IMG/VR virus record: IMGVR_UViG_3300042876_000892
Location: 1-50,665 of that record
Length of the DNA stretch: 50,665 nt
Reading direction: 5' to 3' (one strand)
Source: a virus
Under the pieces are notes generated by a model that had not been told where the DNA came from, made no database searches, and saw only the letters and a program-made list of their open reading frames with translations. This document shows positions 1-37,900 of this stretch, one piece after another. The translations under genes and the position numbers were made by a program. Position 1 is the first letter of the stretch. Each line of letters starts with the position of its first letter.

Positions 1-3000
1 GAGCTCAACGACATCTTCACCAAGGCCGGCGAGGAGCTCGTGCAGCAGGGCGTGCTCGACCCCAAGCGGCGCGACGCGCTGCTTGACGCCTACCTGCCGC
101 GCCACTACGTGAAGATGGTGTACGGCGCGATGGGCAAGCCGCTGCTCTCGCGCAACCTCGAGCGGACGCTCGACGCCTCGCAGGTCGGCGGGTTCGAGCA
201 CGTGCGCGAGCGCGCGGCCGACAGCGAGCACGTGCGGCGCATGTACGACATCGCCTACGTGCTGCCGAAGTGGGCGAGCCAGGTCTCCCAGGTCATGCGC
301 GTCAACGCGACCCTGAACCGGATGCTCGAGCTCAACGTGCACGTGAGCAGGTACGAGTACCTGAACATGCCCGACTCGGAGCGCTGGCAGTACGTGCGCC
401 TGGCCGTGCCCGGCCGGATCGCCGACGACCCCGGCCCCTCGCCCGCGCTCACGCCGGAGGAGCACGAGGCCCTGAGTCCGATTCAGCCCGTGCTCAACGA
501 CGAGGGCGCGGCGATCCAGCGCATCAACGCCGAGCTCGCCAAGCTGCGCGCGCTCGAGCTGAAGGAGCGCAAGGAGGCCACGCTCGAGCAGATCATCGTC
601 CACGAGTACGTCAAGAAGGTGCGCGCCTTCCACGACGGCCCCAAGGCGCCGAAGCTCACCGAGCGGATGGCGAAGCAACTCGACACGCTCGAGCGCTGCT
701 ACGTGCCGATCAACGTCGCCGTCGAGGTCGGGATCCTGATCGACCAGACGGACCTGGGCCCGTCCGTGAACGACAGCGCATCGTTCAAGTTCGCCTCGAA
801 CGTGTCGCTCGCCTGGCGGCGGATGCGCACCGTCTACAACCCGGGGCACTGGTTCATGCAGGTCGCCTCGAACTGGCTGACCAACGCGGCCACCGGCAAG
901 GTGCCGCTGCACGACATCCTCAACCCGCGCGGATCGTACTGGCGCTCGGCCAAGACGCTCGGCCGCTGGCAGGAGATGATCGCGAAGGGTGAGGACCCTG
1001 CGATGTCGAGCGACGAGGAGGTGCGGCACGCGCACCGCTTCATGCTGCGCGGCGGGGTGAACACGTTCGCGGCCCAGTTCAACGACCCGGTCAACGGCAA
1101 CGACATCGCCGCCGGCTTCATCGGTCGCATCCAGCGGCAGTGGATCCAGTCGGGCCAGACGATGGGCGACACGCTGACCACGACGCTCATGGAGCAGGCC
1201 GCCGGCTCGGGCCGCGCGCTCGCGGATGCGCGCACGTGGGTCGATGCGATGGCGAACGGCACGTCGCCCGAGTCGCGCGCCGAGGCGCTGCGCGCGCTGC
1301 ACGGGATGTACGGCTTCCTCGACCTGGTCCCCAAGTACGCCGCCCAGATCGAGGGCGAGAAGATGGGCTGGGACGAGGAGGCGGCCTACCACTGGGGCAC
1401 CGAAGGCACCGGCGACTTCGCCGACGTGAACCCCAGAATCCGTCAACTAACTACTAACTTCTCTCTATCGCACGGGCCGCTGTACGGACGTGCGCGCGTG
1501 GGCCTGGGCCTGGGTGAGCGGGTCGGCACGGCGCGTCCGGGAGCCAGCGCGGCCGAGAGCGCATGGCGCTGGACCGAGTCGATCCGCCACTCCGGGCTGG
1601 CCGGCCCCTTCTGGATGTACCGCTTCGCGATGAACCCGACGCTCGGGCGCGCGATGGTCAACATGCCGATGAAGGCTGCCGTCACGGCCGCGCTGTTCAC
1701 GTTCGGCATCCGCGTGCTTTCCGCTGTGATGGCCGACGACGAGGACGACCAGAAGCTCCTGATCGCGAGCCACGCCGGGCGCGACTCGTTCCTCCATGCG
1801 AACTTCGACGAGGCCACCTTCGACGCCTACGCGCGCAACTACGGACGCGCGCCGGCGTGGGGCATGGGCGTGTGGACTGTGGCCGTGAACGACTGGGTGC
1901 ACTTCACGAAGGCGTACCTGCGCAACTTCATCCGCGACGATCCCGAGGCGGCGATGCTCTTCCGCGCGCGCGGCCCGACGATCGGCGGGCAAGAGAGCGT
2001 GCTCGACTTCGAGAGCTACTTCCCGGGGCTCTCGACCGGCATGTGGCTCGCCGACAAGCTGCAGGGCATCGACGACCCGAAGCCCTTCGCGCAGCCGGAG
2101 GGCATGGGCGTGGCGCACCTGCCGGCGGCGATGGCGTCGGTCGCGATCGCCGTGGCCGAGGGGCTCTTCGGCGTCGAGGGCAAGTCGAAGGAGCGCGTGC
2201 GGTACGAGCACCTGGCCGAGCTCGCGGCCGAGTGGTCGACCCCGATGGCCGGCCTGCCGTGGATCTTCTCGCGCGAGGGCCAGCGCATCATCGGCGCCGT
2301 GGCGTGGAACGGGCGCTCGGTCGGCGAGATGGTCGACCGGCTCCCGCAGATTCGGCCCCAGCAGAACCCGCTCGTCGAGCTCGGGCTGATCGCCGCCGAC
2401 ACGGTACTGCCCATGCGCAAGCTCAGCTCGCGTAGCGCGATTCCCAGCGAGGGCGGGATGATCGACACGTTCGAGGACCTGCTCGGCACGCGCCTGCGCA
2501 CGCGCGACATGCCGCGCGGGGACACCGAGGAGCGGGAAGCCGCACGCCGGGCGGCGCTCTCCAAGGAGGCCGTCCTGCGCAGCCTGGGGTGGGCGTACAG
2601 GCAGGCCCGCGAGAACGGCGCGCCGCTCGCCATGTGGAACGGCGAGGCCCTCGACCTCGAGCGCGACCTGGTCATCACCGATCGGGACGCGCGCCAGGTC
2701 TACGACGTGAACGACAAGCCGCAGACCCAGCTCGGGAAGTTCATCCGCAACGCCGCCCGCACGGACGATGAGCGCCAGCTCCTCACGGCCGACGTGGTCG
2801 CACACCTGATCCGCCACCGGGACGACATCGTCGCCTTCGCCGAAGACCCGCGCGGCCTGGCGAACCGCGTCGGCCTGCCGCCGGTGCTGTACGAGCGGAT
2901 GCTCGCCGGCGTGTGGGACAAGGAGACCAACGCCCCCGAGCTCCTGAAGCTGATCCACCAAGAGCTCACGGACAAGGGCGCCAGGAAGCAAAGCGGCGGG

Positions 3001-3261
3001 CAGTACGACGACGTGATCGCGCGCCTGTGGCACCAAGCCGACATGCCGCGGCTCACCAAGGGCTACCGCTCCGGCGCCAACCTGGACCGTGTGCTCGCGG
3101 TCGAGCGGGCCCTGGGGGCCCTGCGCGCCGCGCACCCGGACACCGACTTCTCGAAACCCGTGGAAGCCAGCGAGCTCCGCGGCATGATGAAGGCGACGGC
3201 CGTGGACATGCTGCCGTCGCTCGTCAACCGTCGCCCCGACTACACCTTCTTCAAGGACTGA
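1..3261 (+). CDS. Giant polyvalent virion protein, C-terminal part (5' end outside window)
   Basis: This frame is open from the first base, with no stop before it, so 1,086 residues of a longer protein are visible. Around bases 820-900 lies a segment containing RTVYNPGHWFMQVASNWLTN. It resembles the conserved 'NPxxHxRNxxSN' block that I associate with large polyvalent phage proteins (LPD38-like), which is recalled rather than searched. A hydrophobic segment near 1675-1730 could cross a membrane. The rest is helical and charged, with no catalytic motif I recognise. The gene is followed by two lipoprotein genes. It probably continues from the frame at 45438-50665, making an internal or ejected virion protein of about 2,830 residues. 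The function is inferred only from size and neighbours. Confidence 0.7.
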   Translation, partial: ELNDIFTKAGEELVQQGVLDPKRRDALLDAYLPRHYVKMVYGAMGKPLLSRNLERTLDASQVGGFEHVRERAADSEHVRRMYDIAYVLPKWASQVSQVMRVNATLNRMLELNVHVSRYEYLNMPDSERWQYVRLAVPGRIADDPGPSPALTPEEHEALSPIQPVLNDEGAAIQRINAELAKLRALELKERKEATLEQIIVHEYVKKVRAFHDGPKAPKLTERMAKQLDTLERCYVPINVAVEVGILIDQTDLGPSVNDSASFKFASNVSLAWRRMRTVYNPGHWFMQVASNWLTNAATGKVPLHDILNPRGSYWRSAKTLGRWQEMIAKGEDPAMSSDEEVRHAHRFMLRGGVNTFAAQFNDPVNGNDIAAGFIGRIQRQWIQSGQTMGDTLTTTLMEQAAGSGRALADARTWVDAMANGTSPESRAEALRALHGMYGFLDLVPKYAAQIEGEKMGWDEEAAYHWGTEGTGDFADVNPRIRQLTTNFSLSHGPLYGRARVGLGLGERVGTARPGASAAESAWRWTESIRHSGLAGPFWMYRFAMNPTLGRAMVNMPMKAAVTAALFTFGIRVLSAVMADDEDDQKLLIASHAGRDSFLHANFDEATFDAYARNYGRAPAWGMGVWTVAVNDWVHFTKAYLRNFIRDDPEAAMLFRARGPTIGGQESVLDFESYFPGLSTGMWLADKLQGIDDPKPFAQPEGMGVAHLPAAMASVAIAVAEGLFGVEGKSKERVRYEHLAELAAEWSTPMAGLPWIFSREGQRIIGAVAWNGRSVGEMVDRLPQIRPQQNPLVELGLIAADTVLPMRKLSSRSAIPSEGGMIDTFEDLLGTRLRTRDMPRGDTEEREAARRAALSKEAVLRSLGWAYRQARENGAPLAMWNGEALDLERDLVITDRDARQVYDVNDKPQTQLGKFIRNAARTDDERQLLTADVVAHLIRHRDDIVAFAEDPRGLANRVGLPPVLYERMLAGVWDKETNAPELLKLIHQELTDKGARKQSGGQYDDVIARLWHQADMPRLTKGYRSGANLDRVLAVERALGALRAAHPDTDFSKPVEASELRGMMKATAVDMLPSLVNRRPDYTFFKD

Positions 3262-3263
3262 CC

Positions 3264-3728
3264 ATGCGCTGCTGCCAACTCGATCGAGACATCCACGTCG
3301 GCCGGAAGCCCTGGCTGGCGATGCTCTTCACCATCCTGGTCCTGCTCGCACTCACGAGCTGCAAGTCCAGCGCGAGCTTCGACAGCTCGCCTGTGCTGAT
3401 CGACGCGCGCTTCGGCGTGCAGGATCCGCCGCCGCCGTTCGCCTGGGTGCGAACCGACGGCAACATCCTGGTCGCGCGCACGAGCGCCGACGGATTCGTG
3501 CGCCTGGTCGACAAGCAGACCTGGATGCCGCTGCCGCTCAGCGTCACGTTTCAAGGCGGCAAGATCCTCGTGGTCAATCGCAAGCTCGACATCAGCTCGA
3601 GCTACGACCTCGACGCTGCGATCCCCTCGTGGTGCGGCGAGGTGTTCTCGCCGGCTGAGAAGGTCGTCGCCGGCGGCAAGGTGACCGTGCCCGAGCTCGG
3701 CATCGCGTTTGAAGTGGGGCTGCCGTAA
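3264..3728 (+). CDS. Small predicted lipoprotein
   Basis: This 154-residue protein begins two bases after the giant gene stops. It has a basic N-terminus, a hydrophobic stretch (LAMLFTILVLLALTSC) and a lipobox LTSC at about residues 31-34. Signal peptidase II processing and lipid anchoring are therefore likely. The mature part is a short, probably beta-rich domain with no motif I recognise. Its stop overlaps the start of the next gene (TAATG), so the two are translationally coupled. Phage lipoproteins can act in superinfection exclusion or as outer-membrane spanins. This one is longer than a usual spanin and the sequence does not decide between these roles. Confidence 0.75.
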   Translation: MRCCQLDRDIHVGRKPWLAMLFTILVLLALTSCKSSASFDSSPVLIDARFGVQDPPPPFAWVRTDGNILVARTSADGFVRLVDKQTWMPLPLSVTFQGGKILVVNRKLDISSSYDLDAAIPSWCGEVFSPAEKVVAGGKVTVPELGIAFEVGLP

Positions 3729-4759
3729 TGCGCAGCCTCTCGAAGTACCTCGCGGCCGTCCTCGGCCTGCTCGCGCTGACGTTCGCCTGCGTCTCCAGCC
3801 AGGGCGGCGCCGGCGTCGATCGCGACATCGTGCTCGACACCTCGAGCCCGGACGAGCCGGTGCTCAGCTTCGCGCCCGACATGGCGCCGGCCGCCGTCGG
3901 CACCTACTCGAACTTCCTGCGCGCGACCGACTCGAACCAGGTGCTCGCGGGCCGCACGTATCGCGGCACGTCGTACACCGGCCCGATCGTGGTGAGCTCC
4001 GGCAAGGAGACGCTCACCAACATCGAGTACCGGCGCTGGAACGTGGTCAACGACATCGCGGCCGGCGGCCAGGCGAAGTGGGGCATCCTGCTCTACAACG
4101 AGGTCAACTGCCGGTACGTGAACGTCAACGTGCTGGGCATCAAGGCCGAGCACGGGATCTATCAGCACTCGCCGCGCGGCGACGTTCTCCTGTCCTTCGT
4201 CGTGGTCTACGACGTGGGTGCGCAGGGCTTCCAGCAGACCTGGCGCGGCGCCGAGACGACTGACCCGCTTGGTTGGCAGAAGACTGGAACGCACCGGCTC
4301 GAACACTGCGTGTTCCGCAAGTGCGGGCAGCCTCGAGGCTACGGCCGCGCGTCGTACGCCGTGTCGATGTTCGGCTGGCAGTCGGGCGGCGGCTCGACGC
4401 CTCGCCAGTTCTGGGACTGCCCGGTCGAGCTCGTCGACGTGTCGATCGAACACGACAGCCAGGGGCAGTACGAGCTGCGCGGCGCGCTGCTCGTCGAGTG
4501 GCGGCCGTCGCTTACTGTGATCGGCGGGCGCACCGAGTACATCGGACAGAGCGACCGCGACCTGTGGCACATCCACGAGGTGGACGTGGTCTACGTCGAG
4601 AACTCGTTCATCAGCGGCCCCGCCGGCAAGTTCGTGGACTTCGACGGCTGCGACGAAGTCACGTTCACGTCGCCGAACTTCGACGGTGGCGACGCCGTCG
4701 TGCGCATCGACGGCCAGATCATGGGCACGACGGACGACGAGATCGTCTGGAAGCGCTGA
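3728..4759 (+). CDS. Predicted lipoprotein with beta-helix-like repeats
   Basis: The 343-residue product starts with a signal peptide and a lipobox (LALTFAC, Cys near residue 21). After it come repeated short beta-strand segments with regularly spaced Asn, Val and Gly (for example CRYVNVNVLGIKAEHGIY and VELVDVSIEHDS), typical of right-handed beta-helix proteins such as tailspikes and pectate-lyase-like proteins. It is coupled to the preceding lipoprotein gene and is the last gene before the convergent terminator. A lipid-anchored beta-helix is unusual for a phage. It might be a surface protein displayed during infection, such as a receptor mask or a polysaccharide-binding protein. No catalytic residues were identified. 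Confidence 0.7.
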   Translation: MRSLSKYLAAVLGLLALTFACVSSQGGAGVDRDIVLDTSSPDEPVLSFAPDMAPAAVGTYSNFLRATDSNQVLAGRTYRGTSYTGPIVVSSGKETLTNIEYRRWNVVNDIAAGGQAKWGILLYNEVNCRYVNVNVLGIKAEHGIYQHSPRGDVLLSFVVVYDVGAQGFQQTWRGAETTDPLGWQKTGTHRLEHCVFRKCGQPRGYGRASYAVSMFGWQSGGGSTPRQFWDCPVELVDVSIEHDSQGQYELRGALLVEWRPSLTVIGGRTEYIGQSDRDLWHIHEVDVVYVENSFISGPAGKFVDFDGCDEVTFTSPNFDGGDAVVRIDGQIMGTTDDEIVWKR

Positions 4760-4799
4760 CCGAACCGCTCGCGCTGTTCCTTCTTCCGGCGCGCGCGCA

Positions 4800-4829
4800 G
4801 AGGCCCGACCTGCTCCTGGGTCGGGCCTC
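4800..4829. terminator. Convergent hairpin terminator
   Basis: An 11-bp perfect stem (4800-4810 with 4819-4829) has an 8-base loop and is followed on the + strand by GCCTTTTC. It lies between the last rightward gene (ends 4759) and the last leftward gene (ends 4836). This is the only place in the inferred circular map where the two transcription blocks face each other. It most likely ends the rightward block. The minus-strand side lacks a good U tract. Confidence 0.75.
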
Positions 4830-4835
4830 GCCTTT

Positions 4836-6146
4836 TCAGGCCAGGTCGAGCAGCACCACGTTGCGCAGCCAGTCGGCGATCAGTGCCGGCCAGTCGGTGC
4901 CGACCGAGTAGTTCCCGTTCGGATTGTTGAAGCACCACACACCGCCGCCGGCGTACACGCCGTTGCTCACCGAGCCGTCGAGGCTGAAGTGCGTCGAGTC
5001 GATCCGCGTCGCCGTGCGCACGCCGTTCGCCGCCGTGTTGCCCAGCGCCTGCCCGACCTTCACGGTGTTGCCGGTCTTCACGCCATGCTCGATGGCCGTG
5101 GTCAGAATGATCGGGGTGCCCGCGGCGGCAGTGATCGCCTGCGCCGTGCCGTACGTCGCCGTCGTCGCCGCGTCGTCGCCCCAGTAGGTGCGGAAGTTGA
5201 AGCCGCCCTTGATGTTAAGCCGCTGCTCGAGGTGGTACACGTCGGCCGCGTCGTCGGCGCCGTAGTAGTGCGAGACCTCGTCGGTCAGCGAGTCGCCGAG
5301 GTCGACCTGCACCGAGGGGTTGCCGTTCGTGGCGACCCAGAGCGGGATGCTGCGCGCGATCGCCAGGTCGGAGGCCGACATCTGCTCGAGCATGAGGAAG
5401 GCGCTCATCGCCTCACGATGCCCCTGCGGCAGCGCGCGCCAGCCGTACGGGTCGCCGCCGACTCCCAGGTAGCGCCAGGGGTTCACGAGCGCGCGGATCA
5501 CGGGGCTGTAGCCCAGCGAGCCGCCAAGGTTCCGGGTCGGATCCATCTGCGCCAGGCTCAGCGGCGGGGCCGTGAGGATCAGCGCGCGCAGGAGCTGCGA
5601 GCTCCGGTACTGGCCGGGCCCCAGCGAGAGCTGCTTGCCCGGCGTGCGCGGGAACACGCCCCATGCGTCCGGAACCCACTGCGACATGAGCGGCGTCAGC
5701 GAGCCAGCGGAGGAGCCCCAGAGCACGAGCGAGGCCGGGTCGAGCTTGTTGTAGAACCGGCCGTACGGGGCGCACTGGTCCTTGAGCCACTGGTTCAGCC
5801 GGCCGCGCAGGATCCAGGTCTCAGGGAAGTGCGTCGCGTTCGGGCCCATCTCCGAGGTCACGGTCAGTCCCGAGCCGAGCGGGTACTCGACGAGGATCAC
5901 CGCGCCGCCGCCGTCGCGAAACTGGTCGGCGATGTCCGTGCGGCCGAGCCGGTTGCGATCCGGGTATCGCTCGTTCGATCGGTCGTAGTCGTCCTGGACC
6001 CAGCCGCCACCGTGGTCGACCAAGAGGCCGGGCACCGGGTGCCCGGGCCAACCGCCAGTCGGCGGGTAAACGTACACGTAGCAGTGCGGGTGCTCGGCGT
6101 ACTCGTGGCGAGACTCGGCCGAGTTGCGGGAGTAGACGTAGGCCAT
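4836..6146 (-). CDS. Alpha/beta-hydrolase esterase with inserted FCCH-like domain
   Basis: The 436-residue protein has an oxyanion-hole motif HGGGW at residues 45-49 and a nucleophile elbow GSSAG at 144-148 (Ser146), as in carboxylesterases and sugar deacetylases. The acid and His partners are not certain; candidates are Asp282 or Asp285 and His305. Residues about 335-404 (AITAAAGTPIILTTAIEHGV through THFSLDG) look like the small beta domain often labelled 'ubiquitin-activating E1 FCCH-like' in phage structural proteins. It sits just before the C-terminal helix, so it appears inserted in the fold. Two structural-type genes lie directly upstream with 1-base overlaps. A receptor-modifying virion esterase that removes acyl groups from surface glycans is a reasonable inference. 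Confidence 0.75.
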   Translation of the reverse strand: MAYVYSRNSAESRHEYAEHPHCYVYVYPPTGGWPGHPVPGLLVDHGGGWVQDDYDRSNERYPDRNRLGRTDIADQFRDGGGAVILVEYPLGSGLTVTSEMGPNATHFPETWILRGRLNQWLKDQCAPYGRFYNKLDPASLVLWGSSAGSLTPLMSQWVPDAWGVFPRTPGKQLSLGPGQYRSSQLLRALILTAPPLSLAQMDPTRNLGGSLGYSPVIRALVNPWRYLGVGGDPYGWRALPQGHREAMSAFLMLEQMSASDLAIARSIPLWVATNGNPSVQVDLGDSLTDEVSHYYGADDAADVYHLEQRLNIKGGFNFRTYWGDDAATTATYGTAQAITAAAGTPIILTTAIEHGVKTGNTVKVGQALGNTAANGVRTATRIDSTHFSLDGSVSNGVYAGGGVWCFNNPNGNYSVGTDWPALIADWLRNVVLLDLA

Positions 6147-7648
6147 CAGCGCTTCGCGTGGGTGAGTCGGACCAGGTAGGCGTGGATCTTCACGTAGAAC
6201 TCGACGCCCGGCAGGCCCGTGTTGAACTCAGGGGAGACGGCGAGCCAGACGCCGACGTTGCGCGCGCAGCGCTTGTTGACCGGGTCGTCGCCGTCCTCGA
6301 GCTCGAAGCCGGGGAAGTCGGCAGGCAACACGAGCTTGTCGCTGCCGCGCTGCCGGAGCGTGCGCCAGGCGCCGGCGCCGCCGTACACGGCCGAGTCCAT
6401 TTCGCCGAGGAACATCGCGATCTGGCCCTGCGTGAAGTCGGACTTGCGCGAGGTCTGCACGCGGAAGGTCCCGAAGAACGGCGACTCGGCGGCGATCGTC
6501 GGCAGCACGGGAGACTCGAAGCGCATCCAGTTCGGGCGCTCCACGTCGAGCTCGGCCTCGCGAAAGATGGACGAGCCGATGGCGAGCGTGGCGTGAAGCC
6601 GCGGGTTGTCGCCGGCGGGGATGTCGTTCTTCAGCACGCCGGCGATCAGCACCTCGAGCACGGCGCCCTCGGCGAATCGCTCGGGCGGAATGACGAAGGT
6701 GAGGTCGTAGTTCTCGGGAGCCAGGGGGAACAGCGAGCCGTTGGCCGTGTTCTGCTTGGAGCCGATGCAGTTGTAGATCCCGGCCGGTGCGGGCGCGCGC
6801 GGCGCGAAGACGCCCTCGGTGACCGTGGCCTGGTATCCGGTGATGGCGCCAGAAAACGTGCCGACACTTACCCCGGTCCACTTGTCGCCGGGGAATCCAG
6901 AGACGAACAACTCGTTGGCTCCACCGTCGAGGGCCGTGCCGTTGTAGAGCGAGAGCACGGCCGTGCCGCCGCCGACAGAGACGACGCGCGCGCGCCATCC
7001 GAGCGAGTGCTCGACGATCTGGTTGGCGACGGGCGGAACGCCGCCGCTGCCGCTGAACGTGATGTTCACGCGCGTGCGGTAGAGCGCGTCGAGCAGCTCG
7101 GGGCTCGTGGTCGGCGCGCCGGTGTTGCTCTGCACCTTCCACAGGCCGAAGCCCTGGGCGAGCACGTGCGTGCGCCCGGGCAGGTCCACGTACGGCAGCA
7201 CGCCAAGCGGGCCGCACGAGCGCACGAGGGGGTAGAGAGCGAAGGCCGGTTGAGCTGCGAGCTCGGCTGAGTGCTGATCGTCGTCGGTGCTGCGCTTGAG
7301 TGTCCAGCTCCCCTGAATCACGCGCCACCGATCGGTGCCGTCCGTCACCTCGACGACGAAGACCCCGACTCGGTGCGTGATCGCGTCCGTGATCGACTCG
7401 TCCAGGTCCAGCGTGACGTTGTTGCCGGCGATGAAGACGCTGCCGGCTGCGACGGCGCGGAAGAACTCGTCGCCACGCAGGCCGAACGACAGCGTGAAGC
7501 TGGCCGACGTAGCCCAGGCCCCGATGTCGTTGATCCCGTAGTACGACAGGTCGCAGGCAATGGTGCGCCGAAAGGTGGCCCCTTGGTCGATCTCGAGCTG
7601 CGCGTCGACGATCGAGGTCTCGAACTGCGGCGGCGGCAGGTACGGCAT
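6146..7648 (-). CDS. Structural-type protein, possible tail fibre or adaptor
   Basis: This 500-residue, beta-rich protein has an N-terminal domain of about 110 residues (AQLEIDQGATFRRTIACDLS onward, then a WRVIQGSWTLKRS strand). That domain is clearly related to the whole of the next upstream protein (7648-7995). The remaining 390 residues are rich in Gly, Val and Thr and include jelly-roll-like stretches. No enzyme motif is visible. Because it sits between its small paralogue and the esterase with one-base overlaps, I infer that the three form a host-contact complex, with this protein as the fibre or linker. I cannot name a family. Confidence 0.6.
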   Translation of the reverse strand: MPYLPPPQFETSIVDAQLEIDQGATFRRTIACDLSYYGINDIGAWATSASFTLSFGLRGDEFFRAVAAGSVFIAGNNVTLDLDESITDAITHRVGVFVVEVTDGTDRWRVIQGSWTLKRSTDDDQHSAELAAQPAFALYPLVRSCGPLGVLPYVDLPGRTHVLAQGFGLWKVQSNTGAPTTSPELLDALYRTRVNITFSGSGGVPPVANQIVEHSLGWRARVVSVGGGTAVLSLYNGTALDGGANELFVSGFPGDKWTGVSVGTFSGAITGYQATVTEGVFAPRAPAPAGIYNCIGSKQNTANGSLFPLAPENYDLTFVIPPERFAEGAVLEVLIAGVLKNDIPAGDNPRLHATLAIGSSIFREAELDVERPNWMRFESPVLPTIAAESPFFGTFRVQTSRKSDFTQGQIAMFLGEMDSAVYGGAGAWRTLRQRGSDKLVLPADFPGFELEDGDDPVNKRCARNVGVWLAVSPEFNTGLPGVEFYVKIHAYLVRLTHAKR

Positions 7649-7995
7649 CAGGCCGTGTCCCTGCGCAAGTACCAGCTCCCGTCTGCGATGCGGAAGCGAT
7701 CGACGCCGTTGGTCGCCTCGACCACCCAGCGGCCGTTGAGGTCGGTGATCGTGGCAGTCACGGCCTCGTCGAGCTCGAGGCGCGCGACGTTGCCGGTGAT
7801 GGTGACGGCCCCGGAGGCGACGACCTTGAAGTTGGAGTCGCCGCGCAGGCCCACCGAGAGCGAGAGCGTCGCGCCCCCGGTGGCCCAGGCTTGCAGGTTC
7901 GCGATGCTGTACGGGGTCTCCGACAGGTCGCAGGTCACGTCCTGCTTGAGGGTTGCCCCTTGCACGACGACGAGTTGGGCGTTGGCGATCGGCAT
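7648..7995 (-). CDS. Small paralogue of the N-terminal domain of the neighbouring structural protein
   Basis: The 115-residue product matches the first part of the 500-residue protein downstream. Shared blocks are AQL--QGAT----CDLS, L-FGLRGD/L-VGLRGD, and a final D-W/FR-GSW-L-R pattern. It consists of that domain alone. The pattern looks like gene duplication followed by extension of one copy. It may form a collar or attachment module with its paralogue. The function is unknown. Its start codon lies 10 bases from the stop of the RusA-like gene, so it is in the same transcript. Confidence 0.6.
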   Translation of the reverse strand: MPIANAQLVVVQGATLKQDVTCDLSETPYSIANLQAWATGGATLSLSVGLRGDSNFKVVASGAVTITGNVARLELDEAVTATITDLNGRWVVEATNGVDRFRIADGSWYLRRDTA

Positions 7996-8005
7996 TGGCC
8001 GAAGT

Positions 8006-8470
8006 CTACGATCCGGAGGGCGTCGCCAGGAAGATCCAGAGGTGGGTGACTGGGTCCTTGGTGGCGCGCGGGTACTGAGAGGCGTTGAGCTCCACGTGCT
8101 CAGGGCTGTCGTCTTCGATGATTCCCAGCCGCACGAGCACGTCCTGCAGCGGCTTGATGCTGGCCGTGAGGTTGTCGGGGTCCATCGGGCGGGTGAAGTA
8201 GCTGCGCTGGTACTCGATCCGCACCTTGCCCTTGAAGCGGATCGGGCGCGACTCGCTCGAGTTGATCGCAGCGCGCAGCACGAGCTCGAGGTCGTCCTTC
8301 TGCCGCTTGCGGCGCGCCCAGTGCTGTCGCAGGAAGCCGCCTGGTCCGTTGGGGCCGGGCGGCTCGCATCCGAACAGGATCAGGTGCAGGCCGTCGTGCG
8401 TTCCGCAGGGCGCCATGAAGCGTGCGACGCGCACGTTGCGCGGCACGAGTCCAGCCTTCGCGCGAGCCAT
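8006..8470 (-). CDS. RusA-like Holliday junction resolvase
   Basis: The 154-residue protein contains DPDNL at residues 97-101, an Asp at 110 in LQDVL, and the pair Asp120-Asp121 in GIIEDDSPEHV. This is the spacing of metal-binding acidic residues in RusA-family endodeoxyribonucleases (DxDN...D...DD). These enzymes cut four-way junctions made during recombination or replication, and phages use them to resolve branched DNA before packaging. I chose the ATG at 8470 rather than an upstream in-frame start because it sits just downstream of the previous stop (8472) and the extra N-terminus is low-complexity. The Cas4-like nuclease and Rad52-like protein genes lie upstream in the same block. Confidence 0.85.
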   Translation of the reverse strand: MARAKAGLVPRNVRVARFMAPCGTHDGLHLILFGCEPPGPNGPGGFLRQHWARRKRQKDDLELVLRAAINSSESRPIRFKGKVRIEYQRSYFTRPMDPDNLTASIKPLQDVLVRLGIIEDDSPEHVELNASQYPRATKDPVTHLWIFLATPSGS

Positions 8471-8471
8471 G

Positions 8472-8750
8472 CTACTCCCCCTCCTGCTTCGCGAGGATGC
8501 GGATCTTGGCGGCCAGGTCGTCGAGGATCTCACTGCGGGCCTGCCCAAGCTCGTATTTGTACTCGGCTACCAGCACCGCGCACCGCTCGCACGCCTTTGC
8601 GCGCACGGCACGGAGCAAGACCGGGAGCACGTCACGGATGAAGTCCTCGCGGTCGTGCCACGAGTGAGTGTGCCGCTGGCTGTCGTTGAAGCTCCAGTGC
8701 GCGCGCAGCACCTCGACGACCACCAGCTCGATGGACTTGCCGGCCGTCAT
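8472..8750 (-). CDS. Hypothetical protein, 92 residues
   Basis: The start ATG at 8750 overlaps the stop of the tiny upstream gene (ATGA). The protein is mostly helical, with a CERC pair (ACERCAVLVAEYKYELGQ) and a His-rich segment (HTHSWH) that could bind metal. I recognise no family. It lies between a 41-residue membrane protein and the RusA-like resolvase. Confidence 0.6.
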   Translation of the reverse strand: MTAGKSIELVVVEVLRAHWSFNDSQRHTHSWHDREDFIRDVLPVLLRAVRAKACERCAVLVAEYKYELGQARSEILDDLAAKIRILAKQEGE

Positions 8751-8872
8751 GGAGTCACCGCGCAGGCCACCACCCACAGTGCGAACGGAAGCGCGGCGAG
8801 CAGCACGTCCACCCACGTCGTGGTCCGGTCGTCGTACTCGTACTCGTGGTCCCAGTCGTCGTACTCGCTCAT
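8747..8872 (-). CDS. Tiny single-pass membrane protein, 41 residues
   Basis: The protein begins with a very acidic and aromatic segment (MSEYDDWDHEYEYDD) and ends with one hydrophobic helix (WVDVLLAALPFALWVVACAV). A GGAGG lies 11 bases before the ATG, and its stop overlaps the next start. The layout is an acidic cytoplasmic tail plus one membrane anchor. The role is unknown. It is the first gene after the interrupted gene on the transcript. Confidence 0.55.
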   Translation of the reverse strand: MSEYDDWDHEYEYDDRTTTWVDVLLAALPFALWVVACAVTP

Positions 8873-8875
8873 TGG

Positions 8876-9100
8876 TCAGGAGTCCTCCGGCTGTGGGTAC
8901 AGAACGTCACGCATCTGCTCGAAGCCCCAAGGGGCCGGAGCTGAGTCCTTCTCGCAGGCGTTCACGAGCTCGAAGCTCGCATCGGCGAGCTTCAGGAGCT
9001 TGTTCGCGTGCTGCTTCAGGCGCCCGTAGAAACGGTCGCGAGCTCGGAGTCTCGACGCCTCGCCGAGGTCGCACTCGTCGAGGATCTTGGCCTCGTACTT
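8876..9100 (-). pseudogene. C-terminal fragment of a gene split by the IS element
   Basis: These bases encode 74 residues beginning KYEAKILDECDLGEASRLRA and ending at the stop at 8876. There is no start codon of its own next to a ribosome site. It is the 3' part of the gene whose 5' part is at 11137-11208. Joining the two across one copy of the 8-base target gives an uninterrupted reading frame of 98 residues, with AHRDWK meeting KYEAKIL exactly in phase. The intact protein would be a small, helical, charged protein of unknown function. Confidence 0.85.
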
Positions 9101-9108
9101 CTTCCAAT
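9101..9108. repeat. Target site duplication, left copy
   Basis: CTTCCAAT, identical to 11137-11144, directly abuts the left inverted repeat. Eight base pairs is the usual duplication length for IS1595-family elements. Confidence 0.9.
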
Positions 9109-9132
9109 GGCAGAAACTTACTTGACGCACCA
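9109..9132. repeat. Left terminal inverted repeat of the IS element
   Basis: Twenty-four bases match the reverse complement of 11113-11136 at 18 positions. The best-matching parts are the outer GGCAG and the inner CGCACCA. Confidence 0.85.
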
Positions 9133-9157
9133 AGGCGGTGAGGTTAGTATCTAGGCC

Positions 9158-10117
9158 ATGGACACCCCGACAACACTGCTCGAAGCCTCGCGCTACTTCG
9201 CCGACCTGGACCGCTGCGAGGCGTACATGGCCGAGATCCGCTGGCCCGAGGGCAAGCCCTACTGCCTGTCCTGCGGCTCGGATCGCGTCGGCCGCATCGA
9301 GACGCGCCGCCTGCTCCGCTGCAAGGACTGCCGTCGCCAGTTCTCCCACAAGGTCGGCACGATCTTCGAGGACTCGCCGCTCGGGCTCGATAAGTGGTTC
9401 GTCGCGGTCTGGGCCATCGCCAACTGCAAGAACGGGATCAGCTCGCACGAGCTGGGCCGGGCCATCGGCGTGACCCAGAAAACGGCGTGGTTCATGCTCC
9501 ACCGCATCCGCAAGGCGATGGAGACCAAGGACTTCTCCAAGTTCGACGGTCCGGCTGAGGCCGACACGACCTACGTCGGCGGCAAGGCCGACAACATGCA
9601 CGCTGCGCGCCGCGAGAAGCTCATCCAGGGACGCGGCGCGGTCGGCAAGACTGCGGTCCACGGCGTGCTCCAGCGCACGACTGACGAGCAGCCGAGCCAG
9701 GTGCGAGCCCTTGTGCTCGCAGGCCAGGATCTTAGCGCCGAGCGCGGCCAGATCGCCCGCACCGTCAAGCCGGGCGCTGAAGTCTTCACAGACGATGCCC
9801 GGATCTACGACCCGCTCGGCGAGACGTTCCGGCACGATGCCGTGGACCACTCGCGCGAGTACGTTCGCGGCCACGTCCACACGAACGGCATCGAGAACTT
9901 CTGGTCGCTCTTCAAGCGAACGCTCAAGGGCACTTACATCCACGTCGCGCCCTTCCACCTCGGCCGTTACGCGACCGAGCAGGTGTTCCGATTCAACGCC
10001 CGCAAGGGCACGGACGCGACTCGATTTCGTGACGCGCTTGCCGGAGTGTTCGGCCGCCGCTTGACCTACCGACTCCTGGCCGGGATCGACGGCGCAGGTT
10101 TCATGTCCCTGACCTGA
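9158..10117 (+). CDS. IS1595 (ISXO2-like) family transposase
   Basis: The 319-residue protein has an N-terminal zinc ribbon (Cys36, Cys39, Cys55, Cys58), a helix-turn-helix-like stretch (SSHELGRAIGVTQKTAWFML), and the DDE/N catalytic domain. The catalytic signatures are Asp136 in EADTTYVGGK, Asp212 or Asp213 in VFTDDARIY, and the HTNGIENFWSLFKR block at about 241-254, which carries the family's Asn and Glu. The length fits the family, and the gene lies 49 bases inside the left end of a bounded element. It should catalyse cut-and-paste or copy-type movement of the element, including its passengers. Confidence 0.93.
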   Translation: MDTPTTLLEASRYFADLDRCEAYMAEIRWPEGKPYCLSCGSDRVGRIETRRLLRCKDCRRQFSHKVGTIFEDSPLGLDKWFVAVWAIANCKNGISSHELGRAIGVTQKTAWFMLHRIRKAMETKDFSKFDGPAEADTTYVGGKADNMHAARREKLIQGRGAVGKTAVHGVLQRTTDEQPSQVRALVLAGQDLSAERGQIARTVKPGAEVFTDDARIYDPLGETFRHDAVDHSREYVRGHVHTNGIENFWSLFKRTLKGTYIHVAPFHLGRYATEQVFRFNARKGTDATRFRDALAGVFGRRLTYRLLAGIDGAGFMSLT

Positions 10118-10127
10118 GAGGATCATC

Positions 10128-10268
10128 GTGGCCACAGAACGAAAGCCCAAGGGCTGGTCTGCATTCGACGTGCTCGCGCGCAAGCTGGCGGCCGTGCCGA
10201 AGGAGGCCGTGGACAAGGCGATTGCCAAGACACCGAAGCGGAAGCGCGCTCCAAAGGGCAAGCCGTGA
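10128..10268 (+). CDS. Small basic protein inside the IS element, 46 residues
   Basis: It starts with GTG preceded by AGGA at a good distance, ten bases after the transposase stop. The sequence (ATERKPKGWSAFDVLARKLA, then AVPKEAVDKAIA, then a basic tail) resembles short ORFs I have seen downstream of IS1595-type transposases; this is memory, not a search. It could be an accessory factor. Its stop overlaps the GTG start of the next gene (GTGA). Confidence 0.6.
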   Translation: MATERKPKGWSAFDVLARKLAAVPKEAVDKAIAKTPKRKRAPKGKP

Positions 10269-10657
10269 ATCCGACGACAGTCGTTGTCCGCACGTCGCCA
10301 GCGCCACTCCGGCCGCGTCGGGGGCTTGTGTTCGATGTGCATCATTTTCCTGGCTACGGCGGCCCGGAGCAGTGGGCGCTCAGAGTCACGTACGCGAATC
10401 GCCTTCTGTCTGAGCGCCTGTATTTCAACGAACGGTCGCTCGGGCTTGGCGAGGGCGCGGCACGCCATCGCTGGAGCAAGAAGAGCAAGGCCGAACTTGC
10501 GGGCATTGCTGCTCGGAAGAAACTGGCATCGGATTGGTGCTACCACTGCGGGCGCGACACCATCGGGTGGGTGTCATCACTGGCCGACTGGCACTTCTGC
10601 CGTGAGTGTTCCCCTTTGGTGGTCGAGGCGTACCGGGCCACTTTGGAGAAGCCATGA
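10265..10657 (+). CDS. IS passenger gene: Cys-rich protein
   Basis: The 130-residue protein starts with GTG after an AAAGGG ribosome site and overlaps both neighbours (GTGA and ATGA). The C-terminal half has CYHCGRD and FCRECS, a four-Cys zinc-ribbon-like pattern. The N-terminal half is beta-rich and has no known motif. It is inside the inverted repeats and should move with the element. The function is unknown. Confidence 0.6.
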   Translation: MNPTTVVVRTSPAPLRPRRGLVFDVHHFPGYGGPEQWALRVTYANRLLSERLYFNERSLGLGEGAARHRWSKKSKAELAGIAARKKLASDWCYHCGRDTIGWVSSLADWHFCRECSPLVVEAYRATLEKP

Positions 10658-11100
10658 AGCCCGCTCAACCGGAGGTCGGATCTAGCGGGAATCCGCTTCG
10701 GCTCGGCAGCCCAAGGCCGATCATGTGGTACGAGCAGCATCTGCGTGAGCTGGCAGGCGGGTGTGTGTGCGTCCGGTGCAACACGCCTAGAATTCACGTG
10801 CTCACGCCGGACGCATTTCGCGACCGGCTGATTGAACTGATGACCAAGGAACCAGCAATGCACTACCGAAACGGGCGTGAAGCAAAGAATGGCGACAGGA
10901 TCGTGCAACTGAGCGAAGGTCGGATCACCAGCGTTGGCGTGCTGTACGACGCGAAACCTGGGGACGACTACTGCAACGGCTACATCGCACCGATCCAAAG
11001 CCCGATGCAGTCGGCGTGTCTCTGCGACTGCCTGCACGCTGACGACGTGGCCGCGATGCTCAAGGAAAAGGGGCTCGACAAGCGCCCGAGCGGGAAATAG
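10654..11100 (+). CDS. IS passenger gene: phage-type accessory protein
   Basis: The full frame gives 148 residues, with a strong GGAG ribosome site before the ATG at 10654. The N-terminal part has a CVCVRCN motif. A second in-frame ATG at 10858, also preceded by a GGA-type site, begins MHYRNGREAKNGDRIVQL. This opening is typical, from memory, of a small accessory protein found in many phages. The gene may therefore be a fusion, or it may produce two products. It ends 36 bases before the right end of the element. It looks like phage DNA captured by the IS. Confidence 0.6.
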   Translation: MKPAQPEVGSSGNPLRLGSPRPIMWYEQHLRELAGGCVCVRCNTPRIHVLTPDAFRDRLIELMTKEPAMHYRNGREAKNGDRIVQLSEGRITSVGVLYDAKPGDDYCNGYIAPIQSPMQSACLCDCLHADDVAAMLKEKGLDKRPSGK

Positions 11101-11112
11101 CCTGCGCCTCTC

Positions 11113-11136
11113 TGGTGCGCGACGTATATTACTGCC
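11113..11136. repeat. Right terminal inverted repeat of the IS element
   Basis: Read on the minus strand it begins GGCAGTAATATACG and pairs with 9109-9132 at 18 of 24 positions. It directly abuts the right copy of the 8-bp target duplication. Confidence 0.85.
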
Positions 11137-11144
11137 CTTCCAAT
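11137..11144. repeat. Target site duplication, right copy
   Basis: CTTCCAAT, identical to 9101-9108. On the minus strand this copy completes the codons for Asp-Trp-Lys of the interrupted gene. Confidence 0.9.
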
Positions 11145-11208
11145 CCCGGTGCGCCCGCTCGAGGTCGAGCAGCCACTTGGGTTTCACAAGGTCGGGCTCC
11201 TCGCTCAC
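11137..11208 (-). pseudogene. N-terminal fragment of a gene split by the IS element
   Basis: These 24 codons start with GTG at 11208 and read SEEPDLVKPKWLLDLERAHR then DWK. GGAGG lies just upstream, and the GTG overlaps the stop of the preceding gene (GTGA), as is usual in this operon. Beyond 11137 the frame runs into the IS end and reads unrelated residues. Together with 8876-9100 it makes a 98-residue protein. Confidence 0.85.
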
Positions 11209-17576: not shown

Positions 17577-18437
17577 TCAGACGGGCGGCGCCTCCACGGT
17601 CACGGGCATGATCACGCCCTTCGCCTCGGGGAGGTCGAGGCGGGTCACGAGGATCGGCGTGTTGATCGACGGGCGCTCGGGGTACGGGCGCAGCGCGGTC
17701 ACGCAGCGCACGAGCTTCGCCGCGCCGGCCTTCAGCTCGAGGCCGTGCGACTCGATGGCCGCCGCGGTCGCGGTGTCGAAGGCGACGCGGTCGATGCGGC
17801 AGCGCTCGGCGTACGCCTCGTCGGACTCTTCCTGCTCGACGTGGCGATCCGGGGCCGCGTACGGCTCCGGGGTCCACGCGATGAGCTGGTCGAGCTCGTC
17901 CGAGGCGCGCTTCGCCATCGCCACCAACTGGGGCGTCTCCTGGTCGGGATCGTTGACGGTCACGATCACGGTGGGGTCGTCCTTGTTGGCGCCGATGGCG
18001 TCGCACACGCTGGCGAACAGCAGCGAGTTGATGCCGAACTTGATGGCTCCGGGCCGGATCTCAGGGATCACGGCTTCGTAGCGGGGGAAGTCGCCGTCGG
18101 CGGAGGGGCGCTCGAACTTGATCGCCTCTCCGTCCTTGCCGACGATCTCCACCGTGCCGTTGGCTCTGAGCTCGGGGCCCATGCAGCCCTTCTTGTTCGG
18201 CTTCAGCTTCGCGGCCGTGGCCCACGCCTCTTGCGAGACGCGGCCGGGCATGTCGACGCCGAATTCGTAGCTGAGGTCGACGACCGCGAGGATCCGACCG
18301 TCCGTTGCGGCGCACCGCATCTTGGGTCCGGTCTCCGTGGTCACATGCCGCATGTCGATCTGGGACAGGCGGCCCTCTTCGATCGCCGCGGCCTTGTGCA
18401 GTTGCACGACGCCACGGCCTTGCAGATTCAATTGCAT
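17577..18437 (-). CDS. Putative DNA sliding clamp-like protein (beta-clamp type)
   Basis: The 286-residue protein has features reminiscent of DnaN-type clamps: MRCAATDGRILAVVDL, then GDGDFPRYEAVIPEIRPGA in the form 'DGxFPxYxxVIP', followed by IKFGINSLLFASVCDAI. The alternating strand pattern also fits. A clamp encircles DNA and tethers a polymerase. No phage polymerase is visible, so it might work with, or compete for, the host polymerase. The start ATG has AAGGAGAG upstream and a structured leader. The call rests on motif resemblance only. Confidence 0.55.
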   Translation of the reverse strand: MQLNLQGRGVVQLHKAAAIEEGRLSQIDMRHVTTETGPKMRCAATDGRILAVVDLSYEFGVDMPGRVSQEAWATAAKLKPNKKGCMGPELRANGTVEIVGKDGEAIKFERPSADGDFPRYEAVIPEIRPGAIKFGINSLLFASVCDAIGANKDDPTVIVTVNDPDQETPQLVAMAKRASDELDQLIAWTPEPYAAPDRHVEQEESDEAYAERCRIDRVAFDTATAAAIESHGLELKAGAAKLVRCVTALRPYPERPSINTPILVTRLDLPEAKGVIMPVTVEAPPV

Positions 18438-23244: not shown

Positions 23245-23319
23245 CGCGGGGTAGTTCAGTGGAAGAACGCCTGGTTCATTCCCAGGATGTCGCGGGTTCG
23301 ATTCCCGCCCCCGCTACCA
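23245..23319 (+). tRNA. tRNA with CAU anticodon (Met-like or Ile2-like)
   Basis: A 75-base cloverleaf has the acceptor 23245-23251 with 23309-23315 (six pairs and a C-U mismatch at 1-72), D stem GTTC/GAAC, anticodon stem CCTGG/CCAGG with loop TTCATTC, a 5-base variable region, T stem GCGGG/CCCGC with loop TTCGATT, discriminator A and an encoded CCA. The anticodon is at 23277-23279. The base at position 37 is U, which is unusual. The unpaired first base recalls initiator tRNA, but the D stem has the elongator-type U11-A24 pair. The amino acid is therefore uncertain. Confidence 0.85.
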
Positions 23320-34999: not shown

Positions 35000-37900
35000 A
35001 TGGGCGAGCAGTTCCGCAGAGTCCCGGTGCGCCCGATCGCCTCGGGCCGCAACACCGCGCAGAATTCGGTCCTGCTCGCCGACGGCGAGAGCCCCGAGCT
35101 CGTGAACGTCGACCTCGACCGCGACTCGATCGCGATGTCGGGCGGCGCCTCGCGCTTCAACAATCAGACCGCTCCACGTCCTGGCCTGCTCGTGGGCACG
35201 CGGGCGAACGGCGCCGCGCTCCAGGTGCTGCCGGGCAAGTCGGTGCCTGTGCGCGGGGCGCTGTTCATCCCGTACTCCGAGAGCCAGGACGTGGTCTGCG
35301 CCGACTACACCGTGGACGAGACCGCGGCGCCGGCGCCGACCAACCGCTCGTTCGCGCGCCAGCGCGGCAAGGACTTCGAGCTCCAGCAGTCCTTCCGCAT
35401 CCCCGCGAGCGAGAAGCTCTTCACGGCCCCGACGCGCGGCGCGCTGAACGCTCCGCTCGGCGACCTGTCGGTCAACGACTTCACCACCAAGTTCGGCGCC
35501 GACGAGGCGCTCGACGAGTTCTTCGCGATCCGCCAGAAGGGCGGCGATCGCATGGCGCCGATGAGCTGGGCGCTCGGCGTGGTCAACACCGGCGCGCTCT
35601 TCGACATCGACGTGGGCGGCGGGCTCAACATCTTCGGCCTGTCGACGGCGACGCACGCGAAGCGCATCTCGAACTACGCGCTCTGCTTCATGTGGCTCGA
35701 CATCCCGGCCTACGGCGTCGACCGGCCGAGGTGCGCGAAGTACCGGCTCAACGCCGGCTCGGTGTGGTTCGACGAGGTCGTCGGCGATCGCGGCTCGTAT
35801 CCGACCTTCGCGTACCGCGCGATGATCGTGCCGTTCTTCGTCGAGCCCGGCGTCGACTACCACGTGGCGCTGCGTCTGACGCGCGACACGGGCAGCTCGG
35901 GCACGACGTGGAACCCCGGCACCGGCGAGCTCTCTGGCGTCGCGTGGAACGGGAACGGCGTGATCGAGTGGAAGGTCGCCGAGAGCTACGGTGCCGTGCA
36001 GACCTTCAGCTCTGCCAACGGCGCTGGTACGCAGGTGCTGCGCTACAAGGGCCCGACCGACTCGCTCGAGTACCTGTGCAAGTACGGCGTGCGCTACCAC
36101 GGGCGCGACGCGGAGCACATCGGTCTCGGCTTCCGCTTCTCGCCGTGGCAGTCGGGCGGCTTCGTCCCGTTCGGCATCGACTCCTGCCCGGTCGAGTACG
36201 GCGGCTTCCAGATCAACGACCACTCGGTGCACGGCCCCGCCATCTCGACCACGCTGTACGGTGAGATCCAGGCGATCGAGCAGGAGCCGACGGGCGCGGG
36301 TTACGACATCTGGGGCCTGCGCATCGAGTACGACCCCGCGGTCGACGCCGGCGGGACGACCTTCGGCGTGAACCGCGCCGGCCTGGTCGAGTCGCTCGGC
36401 CTCGGCGGGCACATCTGGGGCAACGAGACGACGGCCTGGGCGAACATCGACCCGGTCTTCGGCAAGCAGCCGTGGGGCCCGAAGGATGCGCCGTGGGCCG
36501 GCCTGGGCGGGCGCACGGCCGTCGGCTTCAACCCCGAGGCGCTGCGCAGCTACCGGCTCGTGTTCTTGCGCGACAGCGGCGGCTTCGAGACCGCGAACGC
36601 CTGCGGCGGCCTGATGTCGATCGCGACCTACGTGCCGGCCGTCTTCGGCGCGTACACGTTCGGACAGCACATGACGATGGAGGGCGGCGACCAGTTCGCC
36701 GCGACGCCGACGAACCCGACGCTCGCGCCGCTGTTCCTGCGCTGGCTCGTCGGCGTGCGCGCGTTCCGCTGGAACCAGCGCCCGGTGGTGGTCTCCGACG
36801 TGCGCTCGTACTCCAAGCCGCGCACGTGGAGCGTGGTCTGCGACTTCTCGCTGACGCACGAGCTCGACCTAACGCGCGCCGGCGAGCCCGGGCTCGAGAG
36901 CCTGCGCGGGCACTGGGCGCTGACGGATGGCGGCGGATACGAAGCGGCCGAGTCGATCCTCGGCAACTCCGGCTTCCTCACGCCGCTCGCGGGGCAGCGA
37001 CTCAAGGACGGCGGGATCTTCCTCTCGGGCGAGGGCGAGGCGCTGTACCTGAACCTTGCGGAGAATCCCGACTTCCGCGCGCAGCTCCGCGCGGCGCAGA
37101 CCGACGGCCTCGGCGCGTGCGCGATCCAGCTCACGATGCGGATGCCGGAAGCGAGCTACGCGCTCGCGCAGCGCGTGAACGATCCGCTGGGCACGGGCGG
37201 CGCGTCGAGCCAGTACCGCGGCAAGTTCGCGCCCGTGCTCGCGGCGCTCGACGTGGAGGTGCCCGACCGCGCGAGCGACTTGCTCGCGGCCGAAGGCGTC
37301 GCGATCGGCGCCAACCAGATCGACCACGTGCAAGGCGCGTACGCGCCACTCCAGCCACTGCTCGAGTTCGGCCACAACGTGTTCGTCGAGAACGGGATCG
37401 GCGTCGAGCCATTCGCGTACCCGATGGGCTTCTCACTGCGCGCGCCCGTGAACACCGCCGCCGACTTCCGCGTGACCACGGCCGACGTGCCGGGCACCGG
37501 CGTCAACGGACTGCACGCCTGGCACCGCCCCGCCGGCACGAACGTGTCGCGCTGGGACAAGCTCGCCGGCTGGGCCGGCAAGGACATCGTCGTGCAGTTC
37601 GGCTTCCAGCCGACGGGCACGGCCGACGAGTTCATCGCGTACATCGCGGCCTGGCCGAAGGAATTCCTCAACCCCGCGAGCAACGATCCGGCCGGAGCTG
37701 AGTTCGCGTACTTCACCAACGCGATCACCATGACGCGCCGCCAGGTCGAGCGCGCCGTCGTCGTGATCGGCGGCTCGTGGAACCCGCGCCTGTCGACCAC
37801 GCGGCGCGCGGGCCCGCCCGCGTACTGGGCCACGATCGGGCGTGCGGCGCACGAGTGCTCGGCGCGCATGATCGTCAAGGACGTGCGCGTGTTCGGCGCC

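Follow-up and report, generated by a model that had tools for sequence, protein, structure and literature searches.

Structure of the element and its insertion site

The window analysed in this work, by which we mean the whole stretch of 50,665 bp from IMG/VR virus record IMGVR_UViG_3300042876_000892, contains phage genes for terminase, portal, major head and ejection proteins as well as Erf-like, RusA-like and exonuclease genes. Between positions 9109 and 11136 it carries an element of 2,028 bp flanked by two exact copies of an octamer that does not occur a third time on either strand of the window. The terminal inverted repeats agree at 18 of 24 positions and begin with GG (Table 1). All of these values reproduce what had been predicted originally, i.e. 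perfect 8-bp direct repeats around 2,028 bp with 18/24-matching inverted repeats. A total of 80 elements, 26 of them viral and 54 bacterial, had ends of the same type together with 8/8 target repeats. The target duplications of these 80 elements display a palindromic preference, roughly C-W-W-N-N-W-W-G, in viral and bacterial cases alike.

The transposase matched the models DDE_Tnp_IS1595 (PF12762; 1.5e-34), zinc ribbon (PF12760; 1.9e-10) and transpos_IS1595 (NF033547; 2.6e-51), in each case above the cut-off, and the residues of its catalytic region are invariant across an alignment of ten sequences. It thus combines an ISXO2-like DDE domain with an N-terminal zinc ribbon, and these Pfam and NCBIfam matches, along with the GG-starting repeats and the 8-bp target duplication, agree with the earlier assignment to the IS1595 family. 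A few bases ahead of the transposase ATG lies the hexamer TAGTAT, separated by 17 bp from a TTGACG located in the left repeat. The same layout was present in 46 of 56 related elements in which the transposase comes first, versus 3% of control positions. Because this arrangement recurs in relatives, the left repeat probably doubles as the -35 region of the transposase promoter, and the transposase message of the window element may be leaderless.

Three tightly spaced ORFs of 46, 130 and 148 codons (10128-11100), absent from the original prediction, are located 3' of the transposase gene. The element had been regarded as a plain insertion sequence; while its IS1595 character and clean insertion stood, a bare insertion sequence was rejected in view of the accessory gene and the two cargo ORFs that also lie between the ends. 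As in transporter ISs, passenger ORFs are found inside the ends (10265-11100, with the accessory ORF at 10128-10268 not counted as cargo). That the element is a cargo-carrying IS1595 transposon is near certain. With an HMM of the basic 46-aa protein, hits were obtained beside the related transposases in all 22 elements of the phage clade described below and in 56 of the 66 bacterial elements whose ends were mapped; no match was found among Pfam, PHROG and NCBIfam models. The protein is a putative accessory factor of the transposase.

Flanks joined in a script to recreate the empty site yielded a continuous reading frame on the minus strand, 98 codons long and closed by a stop, as expected from the proposed fusion of 24 with 74 codons. 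It starts with a GTG at 11208 that is preceded by GGAGG and overlaps the stop codon of the upstream gene (GTGA), and it ends at 8876 with the start of the next gene close behind. A codon score trained on large genes of the same phage reached +7.6 for the N-terminal 24 codons and +23.3 for the C-terminal 74 codons in the shared frame (about +0.31 per codon) and was negative in all other frames of both halves; GC3 was 0.88 and 0.84, respectively. The scores bear out the claim that neither half has decayed. Since the two halves have positive coding scores in a common frame and are accompanied by the above start and ribosome site features, it is well supported that the ORF represents a real gene, without visible decay, which was cut by the element. 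Searches of IMG/VR and of 50,697 GenBank phage records brought up no homologue of the 98-residue protein, so that the case for a split gene is built from the sequence itself.

Table 1. Features of the window element and its flanks, and transposase-less cassettes in other records.
Record	Feature	Position	Strand	Evidence or remarks
Window	3' part of split 98-codon gene (74 codons, stop and target copy)	8876-9108	-	open across joined flanks; codon score
Window	left 8-bp target duplication CTTCCAAT	9101-9108	.	exact; two copies in window; fits C-W-W-N-N-W-W-G preference
Window	left terminal inverted repeat GGCAGAAACTTACTTGACGCACCA	9109-9132	+	18/24 versus right repeat; fits related-element consensus GGCAATAATATACTTGACTCACCA
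Window	predicted transposase promoter TTGACG-17-TAGTAT, -35 within left repeat	9122-9150	+	consensus scan
Window	IS1595-family transposase, 319 aa	9158-10117	+	Pfam/NCBIfam; invariant catalytic-region residues; dN/dS about 0.14
Window	putative accessory protein, 46 aa, basic (FDxLARKLxxVPKxxVDK...KRKRR type)	10128-10268	+	HMM hits beside related transposases
Window	cargo ORF 1, 130 aa, two CxxC-type pairs	10265-10657	+	start overlaps preceding stop; codon usage unlike phage
Window	cargo ORF 2, 148 aa; domain at about residues 63-148 (from 10840 or 10858)	10654-11100	+	domain stand-alone in other phages
Window	right terminal inverted repeat, inward reading GGCAGTAATATACGTCGCGCACCA	11113-11136	-	18/24 versus left repeat
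Window	right 8-bp target duplication CTTCCAAT	11137-11144	.	exact copy
Window	5' part of split gene (24 codons, GTG, GGAGG)	11137-11208	-	joined ORF; codon score
L042	cassette, 361 bp, one 100-aa ORF	5875-6235		8/8 target repeats; within transposase gene of another element
L184	cassette, 441 bp, one 122-aa ORF	17804-18244		8/8 target repeats
L198	cassette, 508 bp, Dam-like methyltransferase just under Pfam cut-off	6120-6627		8/8 target repeats
L196	cassette, 1,483 bp, N6/N4 methyltransferase	7030-8512		8/8 target repeats
L050	cassette, 1,528 bp, series of small ORFs	512-2039		8/8 target repeats
L040	cassette, DUF3800 protein	2229-4838		8/8 target repeats

Relatives of the transposase and their carriers

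A scan of IMG/VR yielded 57 relatives of the transposase, the best of which were 87, 79 and 67% identical over the full length. In 84,980 bacterial and archaeal species 175 relatives were found; among the best 80 of these 175, the top-ranked one showed 57% identity and none exceeded 58%. Each bacterial species is represented in this collection by a single genome, so there may be chromosomal relatives closer than these. In a tree of 120 transposases the window sequence fell into a set of 22 rows that were all viral (SH-aLRT 93), adjoined by five bacterial elements of which four belong to Planctomycetota and one has no assigned taxon. A second and more carefully built tree, with 47 transposases, united 18 phage rows in one group (bootstrap 88, SH-aLRT 94, present in 84% of bootstrap trees). 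Support for the phage clade is moderate. Viral contigs elsewhere in the larger tree were mixed among bacterial rows (12 label changes; L029, for instance, groups with L124), which indicates that exchange between phage and host happens.

The phage harbouring the 87% identical transposase (L001) was compared with the window gene by gene using tblastn, and a single other match was obtained (63 aa at 39%). With a dN/dS of about 0.14 between the two transposases, the enzyme is under purifying selection and presumably works. The clade, the near-absence of genes shared with L001 and the dN/dS value together argue that the element moves between unrelated phages and that its transposase is constrained. 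The window portal had no match in 25 element-bearing records, in a search run without a positive control. The insertion had originally been described as one that the phage must tolerate; the lineage recurs in environmental phage contigs, and tolerance is therefore a property of the whole family and not one odd event.

In the linear record of the window, neither integrase nor repressor was seen among the 44 called genes. A lytic lifestyle of this phage is plausible, the absent integrase being the one ground for it. Relatives of the window phage were sought in IMG/VR via its Erf-like protein and its major head protein, and none were found; portal relatives, from Arthrobacter, Cellulosimicrobium and uncultured phages, were identical at only 20-23%. 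Among the long ORFs of 18 element-bearing contigs, with hits pooled over contigs, terminases, portals and further structural proteins were numerous. A tyrosine integrase was matched in nine of 32 viral records at E up to 0.001, and in eight of these the match exceeded the curated cut-off. Hence the carriers include temperate phages, and some of the moves could occur in prophages.

Cargo genes and transposase-less cassettes

Codon usage of both cargo ORFs differs from that of the phage. No relatives of ORF 1 were detected in viral contigs. The domain formed by the last 85 or so residues of ORF 2 is encoded by a gene of its own in 13 other phage contigs of IMG/VR (57-70% identity), and it found no match in GenBank phages. 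In one of the 13 contigs (L142), a homologue of this domain alone is located between IS1595-type ends, forming a mini-element of 307 bp. Its target repeat is imperfect (5/8), which makes it weaker as a cassette; as a clean insertion it was rejected.

The remaining clade members whose ends were mapped have their cargo wholly or partly upstream of the transposase gene; the window element, with its entire cargo behind the 46-aa gene, is an exception. Clade cargo varies from element to element and is mostly phage-type or orphan: besides the numerous orphans, it comprises genes for a DNA methyltransferase, a PAPS reductase and an HNH endonuclease as well as putative regulators. Bacterial cousins, by contrast, often carry DUF3800 (11 of 61), AIPR, GmrSD, RloB, AbiU, AbiLi, PD-Lambda-5 or methyltransferase genes. 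Their cargo tends to be of the anti-phage-defence type; as the PADLOC models include candidates, this is a tendency and no proof of defence. Defence-type genes between the same kind of ends were observed at bacterial loci L082, L077, L081, L103, L122 and others.

Pairs of inverted ends without an enclosed transposase were sought in 2.3 Mb of sequence, with reversed sequences as control; several were obtained, among them those of L042, L050, L184 and L040, whereas the control gave zero end pairs. A pattern scan of IMG/VR yielded further transposase-less cassettes beyond this search, including those of L196 and L198. Six cassettes (Table 1) hold one or more genes and no transposase between IS-type ends with a target duplication, and thereby correspond to mobile insertion cassettes. 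They are likely to be mobilised by transposases of the lineage described here.

Nested arrangements were seen at two loci. At L202, an IS1595-type element (5419-8947) encloses a cassette (6936-8463) with exact 8-bp repeats, as is the case for the cassette of L042. This nesting suggests that cassettes move, and the mobilising transposase is not indicated by it. Elements may also acquire their cargo through nested insertion.

Origin of the insertion and comparison with known systems

An ordinary bacterial IS1595 element might have jumped from the host chromosome during infection, with no phage-specific lineage involved. Related elements are common in bacteria, and the viral contigs outside the clade that group with bacterial elements would be in keeping with such a jump. 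We nevertheless consider it unlikely: the identity of the closest bacterial relative (57%, among the best 80 of 175) is lower than that of the three best phage relatives, both trees show the clade to consist of viral members only, and its cargo is phage-type whereas that of the bacterial cousins is often defence-type. It is improbable, too, that the contig represents a prophage, intact or defective, in which the element landed during chromosomal integration, since the 44 genes include those for terminase, portal, head and ejection proteins and lack integrase and repressor. What speaks for such an origin are the integrases in some sister records and a phage survey (PMC8136500) that regards insertion sequences as rare in phages, reports an enrichment of transposases in temperate phages and great rarity among virulent ones, and suggests acquisition in the integrated state.

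That the 98-codon gene is unreal, or that its halves are independent genes and the insertion is intergenic, would fit the missing homologue in IMG/VR and GenBank phages. It is very unlikely given the single shared coding frame, the negative scores of all other frames, and the start, ribosome site and operon spacing of the joined ORF. The contig is metagenomic, and phage and element reads could in principle have been assembled into a chimera; with an exact 8-bp duplication at the predicted ends that fits the target preference of 80 elements, this can be regarded as extremely improbable. By our assessment it is quite probable that the locus records a recent insertion of a phage-adapted transporter IS, whose lineage, together with non-autonomous cassettes, moves phage genes between unrelated phages. 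A lineage passed from phage to phage is considered likely.

Under this recent-insertion model, the left inverted repeat would complete the promoter of the transposase, and the enzyme, if active, would mobilise anything located between two IS1595-type ends, with the small basic protein as likely co-factor or regulator. Insertion would take place into short palindromic, AT-leaning targets of which 8 bp are duplicated, here within a probably dispensable phage gene. As the ends would be sufficient, phage genes enclosed by them would travel as well, either in an autonomous element or in a transposase-less cassette, and might benefit the phage that receives them. The lineage would persist by movement among unrelated phages that meet in one cell.

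How unrelated phages swap single genes is a long-standing question, for which this lineage would offer a concrete route: it is a transposon lineage apparently resident in phages, and its transposases are 87% identical between phages with almost no other genes in common. The sequence GGYANTNAYATACTTGRCKCACC and its inverse provide a searchable signature for recently mobile phage genes, and transposase and ends constitute a directly testable system. The contrast between phage and bacterial cargo points to one vehicle for both attack and defence. We lean slightly towards a wider interpretation, in which the phage-restricted IS1595 lineage and the cassettes sharing its ends would form a gene-exchange system of environmental phages that carries methyltransferases, regulators and small proteins of no assigned function between unrelated phages; with bacterial sisters carrying genes of the anti-phage-defence type, one family would then arm both sides.

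Small accessory genes among phage genes and gene flow between unrelated phages are likewise features of phage morons and mosaic exchange. The mobility of morons is usually ascribed to illegitimate recombination. In the present case, by contrast, genes are carried by a defined DDE transposon, complete with its ends and its target duplications.

Transporter ISs, i.e. IS copies with passenger genes, are known in bacteria; the reference for IS1595 is the work of Siguier, Gagnevin and Chandler (2009), compared here through a citing paper (PMC3129680). Transposase domains, zinc ribbon, GG-starting repeats, 8-bp duplication and passengers unrelated to transposition are shared with the IS1595 transporter ISs as outlined there. 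The window lineage differs from that outline in that it was found here only in phage contigs, carries phage-type cargo mostly upstream of the transposase gene, and possesses a conserved small accessory ORF in constant direction. Mobile insertion cassettes (MICs) are also known in bacteria, an example mentioned in the same paper being IS231-MIC231 of Bacillus cereus (PMC3129680). Like these, the cassettes of phage contigs consist of one or more genes, without a transposase, enclosed by the inverted repeats that a related IS possesses and flanked by a target duplication; unlike MIC231 as presented in that source, they have IS1595-type ends, reside in phage contigs and hold phage-type genes, for example for DNA methyltransferases and small orphan proteins. 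Integron gene cassettes of phages (PMC9892861) resemble them in being mobile units of a single gene that occur in temperate as well as virulent phages. Integrons depend on a tyrosine integrase and attC sites in place of the inverted repeats and 8-bp target duplications seen here. A phage-restricted IS1595 lineage, its phage cargo or phage cassettes were not found described in the open literature searched, the 2009 IS1595 paper being outside its scope.

One contig, IMGVR_UViG_3300012171_000004, harbours two different elements of the phage clade (L012 and L053) and, in addition, a gene-less mini-element of 176 bp with identical 24-bp ends. In the window, a tRNA-Met gene (anticodon CAT) is located at 23245-23319 near the beginning of the structural genes, and a single gene of 2,649 codons (35000-42949) lies amid them, with more large genes following up to the end of the record.
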